Part shown: positions 1 to 5,901 of the stretch, piece by piece
How the letters are laid out: each line of letters opens with the position of its first letter
Numbering within the stretch: the stretch's first letter is position 1
DNA from: Bifidobacterium actinocoloniiforme DSM 22766
GTDB lineage: Bacteria > Actinomycetota > Actinomycetes > Actinomycetales > Bifidobacteriaceae
Direction: 5' to 3'
Length of the DNA: 64,000 bases
NCBI RefSeq assembly: GCF_001263395.1
Contig: NZ_CP011786.1
Location: 806,001 to 870,000, forward strand
Translations under genes and position numbers: made by a program
The notes under the pieces: model-generated
The model's input: only the letters and a program-made list of their open reading frames with translations
Databases searched by the model: none
What the model was told of the DNA's origin: nothing

Positions 1-581
1 GCGCCGGGACGAGAGACTCGGGCGATCACCGGAATCACGTAAGTCAGGGAAATGAAGGAGACATCGGAAACGACGAACTCGGGCTGGAAGGGCAGGTCGC
101 TCGCCTCAACCTGTCGGATGTTGACTCCGCTAAGCTCAACCACACGCTCGTCGCCAACCAACCGTGGGTCCAATTGGTCATGACCTACGTCAAGGGCGAT
201 CACTCGCTGGGCACCGCGCCGCAGGAGCACATCCGTGAATCCGCCCGTCGACGCCCCGATGTCCAGACAGAGCTTGCCCCTGGGCTCAGGCAGGCCAGAA
301 GCGGAGAAGGCTTGGAAGGCGCCTAGGAGTTTGAAAGCGCCTCGGGAGACGTAATCGTCGCCCTTGTCGGCCTGGAGGAGGTCCGTCGGCTGAACCAGAC
401 GGGAGGGCTTGCGGCAGACCTCGCCATTGACCCGGACAGCCCCCTGCCTGATCAGGGCGGTGGCCCGCGAGCGCGAATCGACCAGTCCTCGGAGAGCCAG
501 AACCTGGTCCAAGCGGCGGGCTGGCCTCGATGACGGCCATTGTTCGGGAGCGGAAGCTGTCACTTCAGGCCTTTCACTCAT
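1..581 (-). CDS. tlyA: TlyA family 2'-O-rRNA methyltransferase (hemolysin A), C-terminus cut by window edge
   Basis: The reverse strand from an ATG at 581 reads through to base 1 without a stop, giving about 193 residues. An S4 RNA-binding domain comes first (about residues 22-85, with RLDQVLALRG and a later SRGAFKLL). It is followed by the Rossmann methyltransferase fold with the SAM-binding stretch DIGASTGGFTDVL and a later VSDVSFISL. Family knowledge: TlyA 2'-O-methylates 16S and 23S rRNA, and its loss gives capreomycin resistance in mycobacteria. A full TlyA is about 250-270 residues, so roughly 60-80 are missing beyond the window. Its start overlaps the stop of the upstream small gene by 8 bases, so the two are probably translationally coupled at the end of a minus-strand operon. 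Confidence 0.9.
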   Translation of the reverse strand, partial: MSERPEVTASAPEQWPSSRPARRLDQVLALRGLVDSRSRATALIRQGAVRVNGEVCRKPSRLVQPTDLLQADKGDDYVSRGAFKLLGAFQAFSASGLPEPRGKLCLDIGASTGGFTDVLLRRGAQRVIALDVGHDQLDPRLVGDERVVELSGVNIRQVEASDLPFQPEFVVSDVSFISLTYVIPVIARVSRPG

Positions 582-780
582 GCAAGTCACGCAGGCGGTT
601 TTGCAACTCGCCCAACACCGTGCGGTAAGCGTCAACCTGCTGTTCGGGCGGCGAATCAACGACCGCCCGCAGTTGCGGGTAGCGCCGGAAGAGGGCCTCC
701 CTAGCCTCGTCCACGCCCGCTGGGGACGCCGCCGCCACGCCTTGGGCGGACGGTTCCATGGGGGTCGCCTCTGCGCTCAT
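574..780 (-). CDS. Small conserved actinobacterial-type protein, function unknown
   Basis: This is a 68-residue hydrophilic protein with no signal peptide or membrane segment. The second half (EALFRRYPQLRAVVDSPPEQ onward) is predicted mostly helical and ends in a charged tail. It lies between the HAD phosphatase (11-base gap to that gene's stop) and tlyA (8-base overlap), the arrangement expected of a real cotranscribed gene. Small proteins in this position between a NagD-like phosphatase and tlyA are common in Actinobacteria. No catalytic motif is visible and no function is assigned. Confidence 0.7.
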   Translation of the reverse strand: MSAEATPMEPSAQGVAAASPAGVDEAREALFRRYPQLRAVVDSPPEQQVDAYRTVLGELQNRLRDLHE

Positions 781-790
781 GACGCCAGCC

Positions 791-1861
791 TCACTGGTTC
801 AGGTGGAAATCGGGGATGCTCAGACCGCTGGGGTCCAGGCCATCGTCCATGGCTGACCAGACCGCGCAGGCAGCGGCGCGCAAAGCATCCAGCTGACTGG
901 CCGGATCGAGCGCTTTGCCGTTTTCGTCCACGGACGTTAACGTCACAGCCCCGTCGTCCAAGCGCGCCCGACTGCCCCCGCAGGTCCATGCCCCGTCGGC
1001 GTCGGCCAGCGGCTCGGGTTGTGGTCGCGTAAGGCCACGGAGATCTTGGGCGATATAAGTAGGCCGCTGATCCGGGCGTGCGGTGATGATCGCTTGAGGC
1101 GTCGCCACGCCCGTCAGGACGACGAGGGAATCATAGCCACCGCGGTCAGCCGCCTCGATGTCCGTGTCCAAGCGGTCCCCTACCGGCAGGGAGTCGGCCG
1201 CGGGGACCGGCTCGTCGCTAGTAGAGAATAAACGGCGGGCCTCGTCGTATATGGCGGGCTCGGGTTTGCCAGCTGAGTCCTCGGGCTCCTGGCCGGTGGC
1301 GGCGATGACCGGCAATTGCAGGGCGCCGTTACCTGGGGCGATGCCGCGCTCCCTCGGGATGGTCAAGTCACGGTTGGTCACGAAGTAGCGGGCTCCGTGC
1401 TCAATCGCATAACAGGCCTGGTTCAGGTCCTCACCGGTCAACGCGGGGTACCAAGATTGGATGACCGCCTGGGGGTCATCGTCGCTGGAGTCAGCGATTC
1501 GCATGCCATTTGCGCGGATTTCGTCGCGCAAGTGGTCGCCTCCAATGACCAGAACCTTTGCGCCGGCGGGCAGGTGCTTGCGCAACATGCGGGCGCCGAC
1601 GATGCCGGAGGTTATGACTTGGTCATCGGACAGCGCAAGGCCGAAGCCTCTGAGCTGGTCGGCCACCACGGACGGGTAGCGGGAGGGATTGTTGGTGGTG
1701 TAGGCCATCGCCATGCCTGCTTGGACGGCCGCCTTGATGCCCTGGGCCGCATGCTCCACGGGGTCCGCGCCCCGGTACACGACGCCATCCAAGTCCAGCA
1801 AGGCCAGCCGGTAGGTCTGGCTCAGCGGCAGGTCAGTACCTTTAAGGAAGCCGGCAGTCAT
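791..1861 (-). CDS. HAD-superfamily sugar-phosphatase (NagD / 4-nitrophenylphosphatase-like)
   Basis: This 356-residue protein has the HAD loops in order. Loop I is DLDGVVYRG, with nucleophile Asp23 and acid/base Asp25. Loop II is in YTTNNPS. The conserved Lys is in AGKPEPAIYD, and loop IV is GDRLDTDI, which binds Mg2+. The cap is of the NagD (C2) type. Such enzymes dephosphorylate small sugar phosphates or nucleotides; the substrate cannot be told from sequence. ATG 1861 was chosen because an AGGAGG lies 7 bases upstream and its ATGA overlaps the TGA of the preceding gene; an alternative start at 1882 lacks this. About 90 residues after loop IV extend the C-terminus and resemble no catalytic element I know. 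Confidence 0.85.
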   Translation of the reverse strand: MTAGFLKGTDLPLSQTYRLALLDLDGVVYRGADPVEHAAQGIKAAVQAGMAMAYTTNNPSRYPSVVADQLRGFGLALSDDQVITSGIVGARMLRKHLPAGAKVLVIGGDHLRDEIRANGMRIADSSDDDPQAVIQSWYPALTGEDLNQACYAIEHGARYFVTNRDLTIPRERGIAPGNGALQLPVIAATGQEPEDSAGKPEPAIYDEARRLFSTSDEPVPAADSLPVGDRLDTDIEAADRGGYDSLVVLTGVATPQAIITARPDQRPTYIAQDLRGLTRPQPEPLADADGAWTCGGSRARLDDGAVTLTSVDENGKALDPASQLDALRAAACAVWSAMDDGLDPSGLSIPDFHLNQ

Positions 1862-3870
1862 GCCTGGTCCTCCTGCGTCCAATCCTCTCCGCTCTCCGCA
1901 GCGGGAATGTTCGTCTCGCTCGGCGGCTCAGGCTCGGCCCCAGGCTCCGACGCGGATTGATCAGGCGCGGCAGGCACGCGCGGGGACTCGCTCACGGCAG
2001 ATTCGGCAGCGTCAACAGCGGCCCCATCCGTAGCCTGGTCGTCCGGCTGTTCAGCATCTGGCTCAGAGGTTGAACCAGCGGATTCGGCCGCGCTAGCCCG
2101 GGCCGTGTCGTCCTGGTCCGGCTCGGCCTGGCCGAGTGTCTCCGGCGAATCCTCCTGGTTGGAAGCCTGCCCGTCTTCAGCCTCATCCTCGCCGCCATAC
2201 AGCGGTATGTCCAGGTCCTCCAGCATGGAAGCGGTGGCGTGCTCCAGGTCGTTGTCGACGATGATCTCCTGCTCTTCCTCATCTTCGTCGCTCTCGGCGT
2301 ACTCGGCCTCCAAGCGATCCAGAACCGGGTCCAGCTTGTGGGATTCGTCGGCGCGTCCGATCTGCTCCAGGAAGTTCTGCTCAGCCTGGAGGGCCCGCAT
2401 CAGGTAATCGCCGGACAGACCCTTGGCCCGGGCCAGCGCTCGCACGGTCTCGATGGCTTTGTCCCACAGGCCCAGGTCGCCCAGGGCGCCTGCATAGACC
2501 AGGAACATCTCCGCTTTGGACTCGCCGCGCAACTCTTTAGCCGCTTCGGACGTGGCTTCTTCGACGGCCTTGCGGGGGTGGCCCAGACCGCGTTCACAGT
2601 CGGCGATGAAAGGCAGGTAGTCCGTGTAGCCGTTCATGCGGTAGGCGGTACGGAACTCCTTGAGGGCCAGTTTATAGTCGCCCTGCCGGTAGGCCACCAG
2701 GGCCAGCGTCTCGCGCGCGATGTCCACCCGGGAGGCTTGCTTGGCCACCCACTTGGCGTGGGCCAAGGCCCGCTCGGGGTCAGACTCCTCCAAAGCGTAG
2801 GCGGCCAGGATGTGCAGGCCGGTGTTCTCCGCGTGCTCCTTGCTCAGGCCGCGCAGCCGCACCTTATCGTCCTTGGAAAGCATGGACCATTCCAAGCCCT
2901 TGGGCATCTTCGGCTCGTCCGGCCTCGGGTCGGTGTACGGGTTCTGCGAGGGATAAGAGACCGTCCCGTCCGAGTTGCGGCGGGGGCCATCCTGGAAGTG
3001 GTCACGCCCGCTGCGCTCGAACCTGCGGTCTTGGCGGCGGTCAGAGCCGGAATCCCGACGATTCTGCCAGCCGGAACGCCGTTCGCCGTGCTGCTGGTCG
3101 CGGCTCCGGTCGTAGCCGTGGCCTTGACCTCCCTGACGCCGATCACCGTAGGAGCGATCCCTGCCTCCATCACGGTAACCGTGGTCGTCGCCGCGCCGGT
3201 CATCACGACGGAAACCGCCACGCCCATCGTCGCGGCCTCGATTGCCATAGGACTGGCGGCGATCGTCGCGATCGTACCGCTTGTAGCCACCGCGGCGATC
3301 ATCGCCATGACCCTGATAACGTCCGTGGTCGTTGCCACCCCGGTCATCACGACGGAAACCGCCACGACGGTCATCGCGGTCCCGATTGCCATAAGACTGA
3401 CGCTTATCGTCACGGTCGTACCGCTTGTAGCCACCGCGGCGATCATCGCCATGACCCTGATAACGTCCGTGGTCGTTGCCACCCCGGTCATCACGACGGA
3501 AACCGCCACGACGGTCATCCGAATCCCGCTCGCCATACTGCTTGCGGCGATTGTCATGGTCGTAAGGCGTGTAACCGCCGCGCCTATCGTCATGCCCCCG
3601 GTAGCCCCGGCGGTCGTCGCGCCTGGGCCTGCCGTCGGAGTTCCCGTGGTCGAACCGCTGCCCGCCGCGCCTGGCGTCAGGATGGTCGTAGCCATGGCCA
3701 TTGGAACGGCCGCCGTCCGAGCCATGACCCCTATAACCGCCGTGACCTTGTCCTTGCCCGCCGCGGTGGAAACCACCGGAACGGCCGCCCCCCGAGTGCC
3801 CGTAACCCGAGCGTGAGTTCCTGCCGTCGCCGCCTGCACGGCCGCGGCCGCCCCTGCCTTCGTCTGTCAT
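1858..3870 (-). CDS. Arg/Gly/Asp-rich repeat protein with TPR-like core and acidic tail
   Basis: This 670-residue protein has three parts. Residues 1-325 are extremely rich in Arg, Gly, Asp, His and Tyr, with RGG-like and DDRRGG units. Residues 335-520 are an alpha-helical TPR-like region (EHAENTGLHILAAYALEES, YRQGDYKLALKEFRTAYR). From about 535 the tail is very acidic and rich in Glu, Asp, Ser, Ala and Pro. TPR cores in bifidobacterial homologues are known, and RGG-type tracts generally bind RNA and favour phase separation, so an RNA-associated role is an inference. Two 48-residue tandem copies sit at residues 118-213. The start has GAGG seven bases upstream. The stop overlaps the HAD gene as ATGA, indicating one operon. 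Confidence 0.75.
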   Translation of the reverse strand: MTDEGRGGRGRAGGDGRNSRSGYGHSGGGRSGGFHRGGQGQGHGGYRGHGSDGGRSNGHGYDHPDARRGGQRFDHGNSDGRPRRDDRRGYRGHDDRRGGYTPYDHDNRRKQYGERDSDDRRGGFRRDDRGGNDHGRYQGHGDDRRGGYKRYDRDDKRQSYGNRDRDDRRGGFRRDDRGGNDHGRYQGHGDDRRGGYKRYDRDDRRQSYGNRGRDDGRGGFRRDDRRGDDHGYRDGGRDRSYGDRRQGGQGHGYDRSRDQQHGERRSGWQNRRDSGSDRRQDRRFERSGRDHFQDGPRRNSDGTVSYPSQNPYTDPRPDEPKMPKGLEWSMLSKDDKVRLRGLSKEHAENTGLHILAAYALEESDPERALAHAKWVAKQASRVDIARETLALVAYRQGDYKLALKEFRTAYRMNGYTDYLPFIADCERGLGHPRKAVEEATSEAAKELRGESKAEMFLVYAGALGDLGLWDKAIETVRALARAKGLSGDYLMRALQAEQNFLEQIGRADESHKLDPVLDRLEAEYAESDEDEEEQEIIVDNDLEHATASMLEDLDIPLYGGEDEAEDGQASNQEDSPETLGQAEPDQDDTARASAAESAGSTSEPDAEQPDDQATDGAAVDAAESAVSESPRVPAAPDQSASEPGAEPEPPSETNIPAAESGEDWTQEDQA
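3232..3519 (-). repeat. Two tandem 144-bp in-frame repeat copies
   Basis: Bases starting at 3301 recur at 3445, an offset of 144. The encoded unit is 48 residues, beginning DDRRGGFRRDD and ending QSYGNRDR. Copy 1 is residues 118-165, copy 2 is 166-213, and a degraded third unit (DDGRGGF) follows. The near-identity of the two copies at DNA level suggests a recent duplication. Because it is in frame, copy number can vary without breaking the gene. Confidence 0.9.
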
Positions 3871-3939
3871 GTCACATCCTCATAGTCAAATGGGGCCGAC
3901 GGAACCGGCCCCTCGTTCTTCCTCGCCCAGCGAGCTGCG

Positions 3940-5262
3940 TCAGCGCCGTTCGAGCGCGCCCAAGGCCTTCTTGCCCCTACGTACCAGGGCGAAACGGCCG
4001 CTTAGGAAGTCTTCATCACCCAGCTGGCGCCCCTGATCATCCACCCGCTCATTGTTCAGGTAGACACCGCCGGACTTAATGGTTTTCCGGGCCTCGGAGA
4101 CGGAGGCGAACAGTCCTGCGCTCACGGCCGCGTCGACCAAGCGATCGCCGGAAGCGGCCTGAGCGAATGCCTTGCCGCCTTGCCCATCATCCACCATCAG
4201 ACCTTGCAGGGCCCCTTCGAGCGTTTCCTCATCCAAGTCGGTCAAAGCCGCGCCACGGCCGAACAAAGCACCGGACGCGTCGAAGGCGCCCTGCGCCGCC
4301 TTATCGCCATGGACATAGGAGGTGACCTCCCAGGCCAGGACCCTCTGAGCTTCACGGGCCCCAGGATTGCTCTGGACCTCGCCGGCCAAGCGCTCAATCT
4401 CGGCCTTAGGCAGGAAGGTGAAAGTCTTCAGAAGCTTGACCACTTCACTATCGGGCTGGTTGAACCAGAATTGGTAGAAGCGGTAAGGGGAGAACATGGT
4501 CGGGTCCAACCAGACCGCGTTGCCCTCGGACTTGCCGAACTTCTTGCCCTGGGAGTCGGTGATCAGCGGGCTGGTCATCACTTGCACGGATTCGCCCCGC
4601 ACCTTGTGAATGAGGTCGAGCCCTGAGGTGAGGTTGCCCCACTGGTCGCTGCCGCCCAGCTGAAGGCGGCAGTCATAGCGGTCGAAGAGCTCCAGGAAGT
4701 CGTTGCCCTGCAAGACCTGGTAGCTGAACTCAGTGAAGGAGATGCCCTCGTCGGAGTTGAGCCGACGCGCCACCGTGTCCTTAGCCAGCATGGTGCCCAT
4801 GCGGAAGTTCTTGCCAACGTCGCGCAGGAAGTCGATAACGCTCATGGAGCCGGTCCACTCATAATTGGACACGAACCTCACCGGGTTGGAGCCCCCAGCT
4901 TCGAGGAAACGCCCGATTTGGACCTGGAGGCGCTTGGCCCAACGAGCCACGGTCTCCTTGGGGTTGAGTGTGCGCTCGCCTGACTGCCTGGGGTCGCCAA
5001 TCAGTCCAGTCGCCCCACCCACCAGGGCTATGGGGCGGTGCCCCGCCGCTTGCATGTGACGCATATTAAGCAGTTGGACCAGGTTGCCCACGTGCAGGGA
5101 AGGAGCGGTAGGGTCGAAGCCGCAATAATACGTGACAGGTCCTCCAGCCAAGAGCTCGGCGAGCGCATCCTCATCGGTGCACTGGGCGACCAGCCCTCGC
5201 CATGTGAGTTCCTCAAAGAGCGAATCGAAGCCCGCTTCCTTGAAATTGGTGACCTTAGCCAT
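3940..5262 (-). CDS. tyrS: Tyrosyl-tRNA synthetase
   Basis: This 440-residue class I aminoacyl-tRNA synthetase charges tRNA-Tyr. The HIGH-type motif is HVGN at residues 57-60, after FDPTAPSL. The KMSKS-type loop is KFGKS at 241-245. The tyrosine-binding GGSDQWGN follows the standard TyrRS order. The C-terminal 80 residues form an S4-like tRNA-binding domain ([16 protein letters not shown]). Length matches bacterial TyrS. The ATG at 5262 is preceded by GGGAG ten bases upstream. No T-box leader is recognisable in the 100 bases before it. Confidence 0.97.
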
Positions 5263-5364
5263 GAGACAACTGCTCCCTATCGACGTGTTCGTATATGAAG
5301 TCGGGACAGCCTTATTTTCGCAGATGAGGCCGACACCGCAAGCCTTGCGCGCCTGGCGCCAGGA

Positions 5365-5901
5365 TCAGGTCTCGGGCTTCTCCGCTTGGCTGGATGTCAG
5401 ATTCAAAAGCCAGGCGCTGCGCTCCTCGGCGGCTGCGTCGTCGGCAGCGATAATCAGGACCGTGTCGTCTCCGGCTATGGTGCCAAGTACCCCGGGCAGG
5501 GGCTGCCGGTCGAAGGCGCTGGCCGCGTATTGGGCCGCTCCCGACGGGGTGCGTACCACCAAGAGGTTCCCGGCCCGCTTGACCGAGGTGATCAGCCCGG
5601 TCAGTACCCGGGTCAAATACGAATCGGTCTTATTAGGCTCACTGGGCGACCCCATGGACACGGCCGCCGCACCCAACAGGCCCTGGTCGGCCGCATCGGG
5701 AATCCAGTAGGCCAGGGCGCCGTCGGGGTACCGAATCTTAGCCGCGCCCAGCTCCTCCAAATCCCGGCTTAAGGTTGCCTGAGTCACTTCAATCCCTTGC
5801 AAATTCAAGAGCTTGACTAGCTGCTGCTGGGAAGTGACCTGGCCTTGTTCCACCAGCTGGCGAATCGCGTCCAGCCGGGCCGTTTTGCTTGCAGGTCGCA
5901 C
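5365..5901 (-). CDS. argR: Arginine repressor
   Basis: This 178-residue ArgR has an N-terminal winged helix (LDAIRQLVEQGQVTSQQQLV, then VTQATLSRDLEELGAAKI). A C-terminal arginine-binding and oligomerisation domain carries GTIAGDDTVLIIA, the usual core. The product is a hexameric, arginine-responsive repressor of arginine biosynthesis. A GTG start at 5901 is preferred: GAGGAGG stands five bases before it, while the upstream ATGs at 5937 and 5922 have no ribosome site and would add residues not usual for the family. No arg biosynthesis genes lie in this window, so it acts here as an isolated regulator, convergent in function but not linked in map to its targets. Confidence 0.93.
   Translation of the reverse strand: MRPASKTARLDAIRQLVEQGQVTSQQQLVKLLNLQGIEVTQATLSRDLEELGAAKIRYPDGALAYWIPDAADQGLLGAAAVSMGSPSEPNKTDSYLTRVLTGLITSVKRAGNLLVVRTPSGAAQYAASAFDRQPLPGVLGTIAGDDTVLIIAADDAAAEERSAWLLNLTSSQAEKPET

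Follow-up and report, generated by a model that had tools for sequence, protein, structure and literature searches.

The window analysed here comprises 64,000 nucleotides of Bifidobacterium actinocoloniiforme DSM 22766 (contig NZ_CP011786.1, positions 806,001 to 870,000), and all coordinates below are counted from its first letter. Its minus strand carries, in the order tyrS, TPR gene, HAD phosphatase gene and TlyA-like methyltransferase gene, a coding sequence for a protein in which a tetratricopeptide repeat (TPR) core follows a long arginine-rich N-terminal tail (Table 1). The first-pass annotation of this DNA had placed an open reading frame (ORF) at 1858–3870, with a duplicated 48-residue unit repeated in frame, and we found these coordinates to be exact and confirmed the repeat. 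The protein belongs to an actinobacterial family whose tails are rich in arginine, and in many members outside the Bifidobacteriaceae rRNA genes lie upstream on the same strand.

Table 1. Features of the TPR gene and its neighbours in the window
Feature	Position	Strand	Basis
Coding sequence of the Arg-tailed TPR protein, 670 residues, ATG start	1858..3870	(-)	ORF; homologues matched
N-terminal R/G/D-rich tail, residues 1-296	2983..3870	(-)	composition, predicted local distance difference test (pLDDT) <50, charge mixing
Array with 24-residue period, residues 94-219, five DDRRGG and one DDGRGG	3214..3591	(-)	
144-bp tandem array, 2.4 copies, 91% matches	3179..3519	(-)	Tandem Repeats Finder (TRF), gene coordinates 352-692
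Linker RRNSDGTVSYPSQNPYT, residues 297-313	2932..2982	(-)	strongly conserved in Bifidobacteriaceae
TPR superhelix, residues about 327-527	2290..2892	(-)	predicted fold; PDB matches
Acidic C-terminal tail, residues 528-670, predicted disordered	1861..2289	(-)	charge, pLDDT
HAD-type phosphatase gene, ATGA overlap with the TPR stop	791..1861	(-)	Pfam Hydrolase_6, Hydrolase_like, GNAT_like
TlyA-like S4 and FtsJ methyltransferase gene, leaves the window	1..659	(-)	Pfam S4, FtsJ on L180:9787-10659
tyrS, directly upstream of the TPR gene	3940..5262	(-)	Pfam tRNA-synt_1b

The composition of residues 1–316 is led by Arg (23.7%), Gly (23.4%), Asp (16.8%), Tyr (6.3%), Ser (6.0%) and His (5.4%). The first-pass annotation had described this half as almost entirely Arg, Gly, Asp, His and Tyr; these five do dominate, but at about 76% the wording was slightly strong. 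Its two near-identical 144-bp copies (3179–3322 and 3323–3466, 89% DNA identity) and degraded third (3467–3610, 68% identity to the reference copy) were recovered in ungapped comparisons, and a TRF run on the whole window reported period 144 over 3179–3582 (2.8 copies, 86% matches). As protein, 46 of 48 residues agree at an offset of 48, and 31 of 48 at an offset of 96. Because DDRRGG recurs every 24 residues (starting at residues 94, 118, 142, 166 and 190, with DDGRGG at 214), we take 24 residues as the basic period and the 48-residue unit as a pair. Composition-preserving shuffles contained DDRRGG 0.027 times on average and none of 5000 reached the observed five, and the 11 observed RGGs compare with a shuffle mean of 4.1 and were reached in 2 of 5000. 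A back-translated DDRRGG pattern, which left out the AGR arginine codons, occurred four times in the 1.83-Mb genome, each time inside the TPR gene, and residues 1–300 used as a protein query had no other match in their own genome at E ≤ 1.

The core, modelled with AlphaFold2 (265 residues, 73 homologues), was an all-helical TPR superhelix with a mean pLDDT of 89.8. In the full-length model, pLDDT fell below 50 over residues 1–296 and most of the C-terminal tail, and the N-terminal half and most of the C-terminal tail are predicted to be disordered. The protein has a basic end and an acidic end, residues 526–670 carrying a net charge of –44. The very acidic tail first proposed was confirmed, and the TPR core is clear from the predicted fold. 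Fold matches in PDB were TPR domains with Z up to 15.3, including LGN (4wnf_A, root-mean-square deviation 4.4 with 197 residues aligned) and MamA (3vty_A, 3.1 with 173 aligned); these are generic TPR superhelices and name no ligand. The repeats are degenerate, the best Pfam TPR match (TPR_16) scoring 19.6 bits against a curated cut-off of 32.7, and NCBIfam gave two weak matches, both far below cut-offs. A sequence search for a solved relative with the 73-sequence profile returned none at E ≤ 0.1. Fifteen core columns were invariant in all 73 sequences, including R381, R386, E387, R411, D424 and R427 (window numbering), and these invariant polar residues may form part of a binding groove. The linker motif pattern was present in 37 of 50 Bifidobacteriaceae loci and in none of 128 other loci, and the median net charge of the C-terminal tail was –57 in Bifidobacteriaceae compared with –30 and –6 in two other groups.

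Genome searches for the core covered the phylum Actinomycetota, with one genome per species. The core was matched in 37 of the 39 genomes of the relatives search and in 278 of 296 class genomes (own genome included in both), as well as throughout the genus (24 of 24 other genomes). Twelve class genomes had two matches (G059, G068, G089, G114, G125, G163, G198, G206, G241, G287, G288 and G295). Of 149 genomes sampled from the phylum and searched at E ≤ 1e-10, 61 contained it, 13 of the same class and 48 labelled as the same phylum. Named members were found in Bifidobacterium, Gardnerella, Corynebacterium, Mycolicibacter and Cellulomonas. The TPR protein is usually single-copy and widespread in the class, and the feature is a family trait, not an oddity of one strain.

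We summarized the N-terminal tails of 145 loci (50 from Bifidobacteriaceae, 55 other named loci and 40 class stretches; L026–L059 lay outside this summary), of which 128 were counted after dropping 4 identical proteins and 13 loci with unreadable or missing tails. Ten of the latter had a frame open at the 5΄ edge (L065, L091, L092, L101, L104, L109, L122, L125, L132 and L134), and the others were L093, whose Arg/Gly-rich stretch lies in a different frame, L094, which has a masked stretch, and L146, with 14 residues preceding the core. Starts were set at the first start codon with a ribosome-site-like stretch. This rule misplaced L070 and L073 (24 residues), for which the first ATG or GTG and a trimmed core start gave 271 and 219 residues, and it failed for L042, where an open Arg-rich frame is present upstream. 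The tail was Arg-rich in 128 of 128 counted loci, with a median R of 24–25% in each of three groups; its net charge was positive in every one of them, and its length ranged from 32 to 696 residues (L070 and L073 set aside). A check for homologues with the same architecture had been proposed in the first-pass annotation, and an Arg-rich tail is indeed present in nearly all of those with readable starts, the short N-termini being weighed below. Outside the class, N-termini were only short or undefined in L197, L200, L201 and L204. Among Mycobacteriaceae-type tails, L155 has 40 and L159 has 58 residues, both from family f19 together with L146, and the named Mycolicibacter loci have 79–125.

Compared with 24 same-genus proteins, the window tail was 34–63% identical, with a median of 43% (shuffles averaged 32% and reached at most 40%), whereas the median core identity was 83%. 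In stretches from family f37, which have 49% GC, the tail contained 22.6% R and 2.2% K, compared with 7.8% and 5.3% in the core. These f37 tails are RPSS-like and RGG-poor. Because the tails of other lineages are RGG-poor, the conserved trait is arginine-rich disorder rather than RGG. Tandem arrays occurred in 109 of 149 family genes, so that the duplication in the window is typical; 671 of 683 arrays had a period that is a multiple of three, and the N-terminal part contained 533 of the 683. Tail length correlated with C-terminal length (Spearman 0.45), and tail net charge with C-terminal net charge (Spearman –0.46), for n = 125 sequences that are not independent.

One explanation of such a tail is that it has no specific ligand and is an entropic, solubility-giving, positive disordered arm whose length changes by replication slippage. 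The frequency of the tandem arrays, their periods in multiples of three, the low tail identity and lengths from about 30 to about 700 residues agree with this explanation. However, it does not account for the strong preference for Arg over Lys even at 49% GC, and a positive net charge throughout the counted loci would be needless for a neutral spacer; we consider this explanation unlikely.

In several named loci, Rfam placed 23S and 5S genes, and part of a 16S gene, upstream of the TPR gene on the same strand. We obtained 40 class stretches from few-contig genomes among the listed matches, chosen blind to rRNA and belonging to 10 families (13 from f37 and 9 from f32). A same-strand 5S gene lay upstream in 39 of these 40 stretches, accompanied by a 23S match everywhere but in L145. 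The remaining stretch, L148, extends 1979 bases beyond the core on the upstream side, and its genome carries a 5S gene at 39–155(–) that would sit just upstream if the record is circular. The median distance from the 5S end to the start codon was 123 bp, and 34 of 39 distances were within 300 bp, the largest being 2565 bp (L145) and 4901 bp (L153). Upstream rRNA was also present in L202, one of two further class stretches. Of 10 stretches from outside the class that reach 7 kb or more upstream, 8 likewise showed rRNA; three additional ones were not long enough to judge. A 5S gene lay upstream in 30 of the 55 named loci from outside the Bifidobacteriaceae; most others end within about 3 kb, and no 5S was found in seven with 4.6–5 kb upstream of the core (L088, L089, L096, L099, L105, L123 and L126). 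The 41 genomes counted contain 1–7 5S genes each, and the TPR-linked copy was the only one found in G049 and in 13 f37 genomes. We estimate the probability of a chance same-strand 5S gene in the 6 kb upstream at <1% per genome, which indicates conserved synteny; since this synteny is inherited, the genomes do not count as separate events. Both of the two 5S genes in the window genome are >600 kb from the TPR gene. In L145, the 5S gene stands without a 23S match in the stretch and may be a remnant or a solitary copy.

In all 24 Bifidobacteriaceae loci with upstream sequence, tyrS lies directly upstream of the TPR gene. Mycobacteria with a second rRNA operon (rrnB) are described as carrying it behind tyrS, and the accessible part of that article contains neither 'TPR' nor 'tetratricopeptide' (PMC10218544). 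The position of rrnB was already known.

On the other side of the gene, all 80 named loci have a HAD phosphatase gene downstream in the same orientation, and a –4 overlap between the two genes was present in 71 of 138 loci (some of which are the same gene fetched twice). TPR and HAD parts share one reading frame in L117, L118, L129 and L146, with Pfam HAD domains confirmed for L118, and such a natural fusion suggests that both proteins meet. The TPR protein could accordingly be primarily a partner or regulator of the phosphatase, which its TPR module would bind; the tail would then serve solubility or localisation and have no RNA target of its own. However, a same-strand HAD gene was found in just 24 of the 40 class stretches. 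L149 and the 13 f37 stretches gave no HAD gene, and in L153 and L154 it lies on the opposite strand; the TPR gene is present in every one of these stretches. This explanation also leaves the conserved Arg-rich composition unexplained. We regard it as a doubtful though credible alternative, and it could hold together with RNA association.

The window protein is likely the orthologue of mycobacterial Rv1691/MSMEG_3754, judging from the family, the gene order and the Mycolicibacter loci L117, L118 and L129. The Rv1691 operon, as given in the accessible part of the source, contains lprJ, Rv1691, Rv1692, Rv1693, tlyA, ppnK and recN (PMC3072309). The mycobacterial protein resembles that of the window in that the TPR gene is near HAD, TlyA and NAD kinase genes, an order also present in Mycolicibacter L118, and in belonging to a family whose core occurs in nearly the whole class, usually in one copy, adjoining HAD and tlyA genes. 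It differs in the shorter tails and in the fusion to HAD found in L117, L118, L129 and L146. In Mycobacterium smegmatis, MSMEG_3754 was among five proteins chosen from the high-confidence list of an anti-RNA-polymerase-beta crosslink pull-down; FLAG-MSMEG_3754 gave no DNA, whereas HupB and the three other tested proteins did (PMC7092591). The authors noted that too little DNA could have escaped detection and suggested a possible association with RNA (PMC7092591). The pull-down would also be expected of a DNA- or transcription-complex protein whose basic tail contacts DNA or RNA polymerase and not mature RNA. Given that no DNA accompanied the FLAG-tagged protein, even though small amounts could be missed, we consider this possibility distinctly improbable (PMC7092591). 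Rv1691 appears only in a table in the accessible part of a further paper (PMC11754781). Our literature search returned no study of the Arg-rich tail or of the rRNA linkage, and no function assigned to the family.

On the basis of composition, context and this one pull-down, we tentatively interpret the window protein as a putative RNA- or ribonucleoprotein (RNP)-associated scaffold, with a confidence somewhat short of even. The points in favour are the Arg-rich tail in every counted locus, the preference for Arg over Lys at 49% GC, the drift of the tail against a conserved core, the synteny with 5S, the TlyA-like gene in the same run and the recovery of MSMEG_3754 in the pull-down without DNA. 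We infer RNA binding, the identity of the RNA, a partner and autoinhibition in the following form. The disordered Arg-rich tail would contact RNA, most likely rRNA or nascent transcripts, through numerous weak interactions that tolerate sequence change, and the TPR superhelix, which carries the invariant polar residues, would hold a protein partner, candidates being the coupled or fused HAD phosphatase, an RNA polymerase factor or a ribosome-assembly factor. The long acidic tail, where present, might compete with RNA for the basic tail and thereby tune binding.

The first-pass annotation had suggested an RNA- or condensate-associated scaffold. A TPR scaffold between an Arg-rich tail predicted to be disordered and an acidic tail is supported by the composition and the models, and RNA association is plausible in view of the composition, the rRNA and TlyA-like neighbours and the pull-down. 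The condensate role fares less well. In residues 1–300, R/K and D/E were distributed more evenly than in 500 of 500 shuffles, and the segregated charge blocks of bacterial condensate scaffolds were not found. Well-mixed polyampholytes are less prone to charge-block condensation, so that the even mixing tempers the condensate idea, mildly, and has little bearing on RNA binding. Bacterial RNP-body scaffolds include Caulobacter RNase E with its disordered tail. Like it, the window protein is bacterial, has charged segments predicted to be disordered and is proposed to contact RNA, but it has no nuclease domain and its tail charges are well mixed, not in blocks. Asp, Arg, Tyr and Gly make up about 70% of residues 1–316, a composition like that of the disordered DRYG region of eIF4B, for which a role in self-association and eIF3 binding has been reported (title of Methot 1996, via PMC11514447). 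Unlike eIF4B, the window protein has no RRM by Pfam and has a TPR core instead, and no evolutionary link is suggested.

Several observations weigh against the RNA-scaffold interpretation. With 11 RGGs and many RGs, the Arg/Gly-rich disordered region resembles RGG-box RNA-binding proteins, but in RGG boxes (di- and tri-RGG) the RGGs are 0–4 residues apart, and none of the 10 gaps between RGGs in the window tail is ≤4 residues. For RG, 4 of 19 gaps are ≤4 residues, with one triple. Asp is almost as common as Gly, and RGG is not conserved across the family. The first-pass annotation would have counted homologues wholly without the N-terminal region as a refutation, and this applies in part: N-termini are short in L146 (14 residues) and in L114, L155, L159 and L172 (32–58 residues). 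The pulled-down protein comes from mycobacteria, a group in which such short tails occur. Bystander proteins are also captured when RNA polymerase is pulled down after formaldehyde crosslinking. MSMEG_3754 is listed as well in a ClpC1 co-immunoprecipitation table, according to the accessible part of the source (PMC10433963). The rRNA linkage is not universal: L203, the other further class stretch, is without rRNA, L195 and L196 outside the class have none upstream, and no rRNA match was found within 5 kb upstream in any of the 24 Bifidobacteriaceae loci for which upstream sequence was available. The gene order may be passive inherited synteny. Finally, of the 32 testable gaps separating 5S from the TPR gene in L140–L179 (40–320 bases long), 24 contain a terminator-like hairpin, compared with 1.9 expected in a crude block shuffle. 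Given these hairpins, plain co-transcription with rRNA is unsupported as stated, and any co-expression would have to come from read-through or from a promoter in the little sequence that is left.

A more specific version is that the protein is an ancient scaffold of Actinomycetota for ribosome assembly or rRNA handling, encoded by the gene next behind an rRNA operon, expressed with rRNA by read-through of the short gap and bearing a fast-evolving, composition-selected RNA-binding polyampholyte tail, and that the Bifidobacteriaceae lost the operon and kept the protein. We consider this version on the whole improbable. If it is true that the TPR protein binds RNA, it would be a bacterial counterpart of eukaryotic arginine-rich RNP scaffolds. 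In any case, a very widespread actinobacterial Arg-tailed protein adjoins rRNA genes across much of the phylum and is apparently unstudied in searchable papers. Its conserved site behind an rRNA operon makes the ribosome link directly testable, and the naturally occurring range of tails, from 14 to about 700 residues attached to a shared core, lends itself to tests of tail function.

Other candidate features in and around the gene were rejected. A 525-residue antisense ORF on the plus strand (2239–3816) mirrors the low-complexity coding strand, and we rejected it as a gene because the minus-strand protein is conserved across the class. Base composition was discarded as an oddity, with GC of 0.65–0.69 over 3001–4000 compared with 0.61–0.67 nearby. 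Between tyrS and the TPR gene, a possible attenuator or terminator was likewise rejected, the hairpin region being no better than shuffles (z 0.30), and a terminator scanner reported only a plus-strand site in this gap. A scan of 1700–5600 for sigma-70-type promoters gave no match, with 0.4 expected. At an Alloscardovia locus of the family, a thiamine pyrophosphate (TPP) riboswitch is present in the flanking sequence (L083:2494-2592) and has no bearing on these results.

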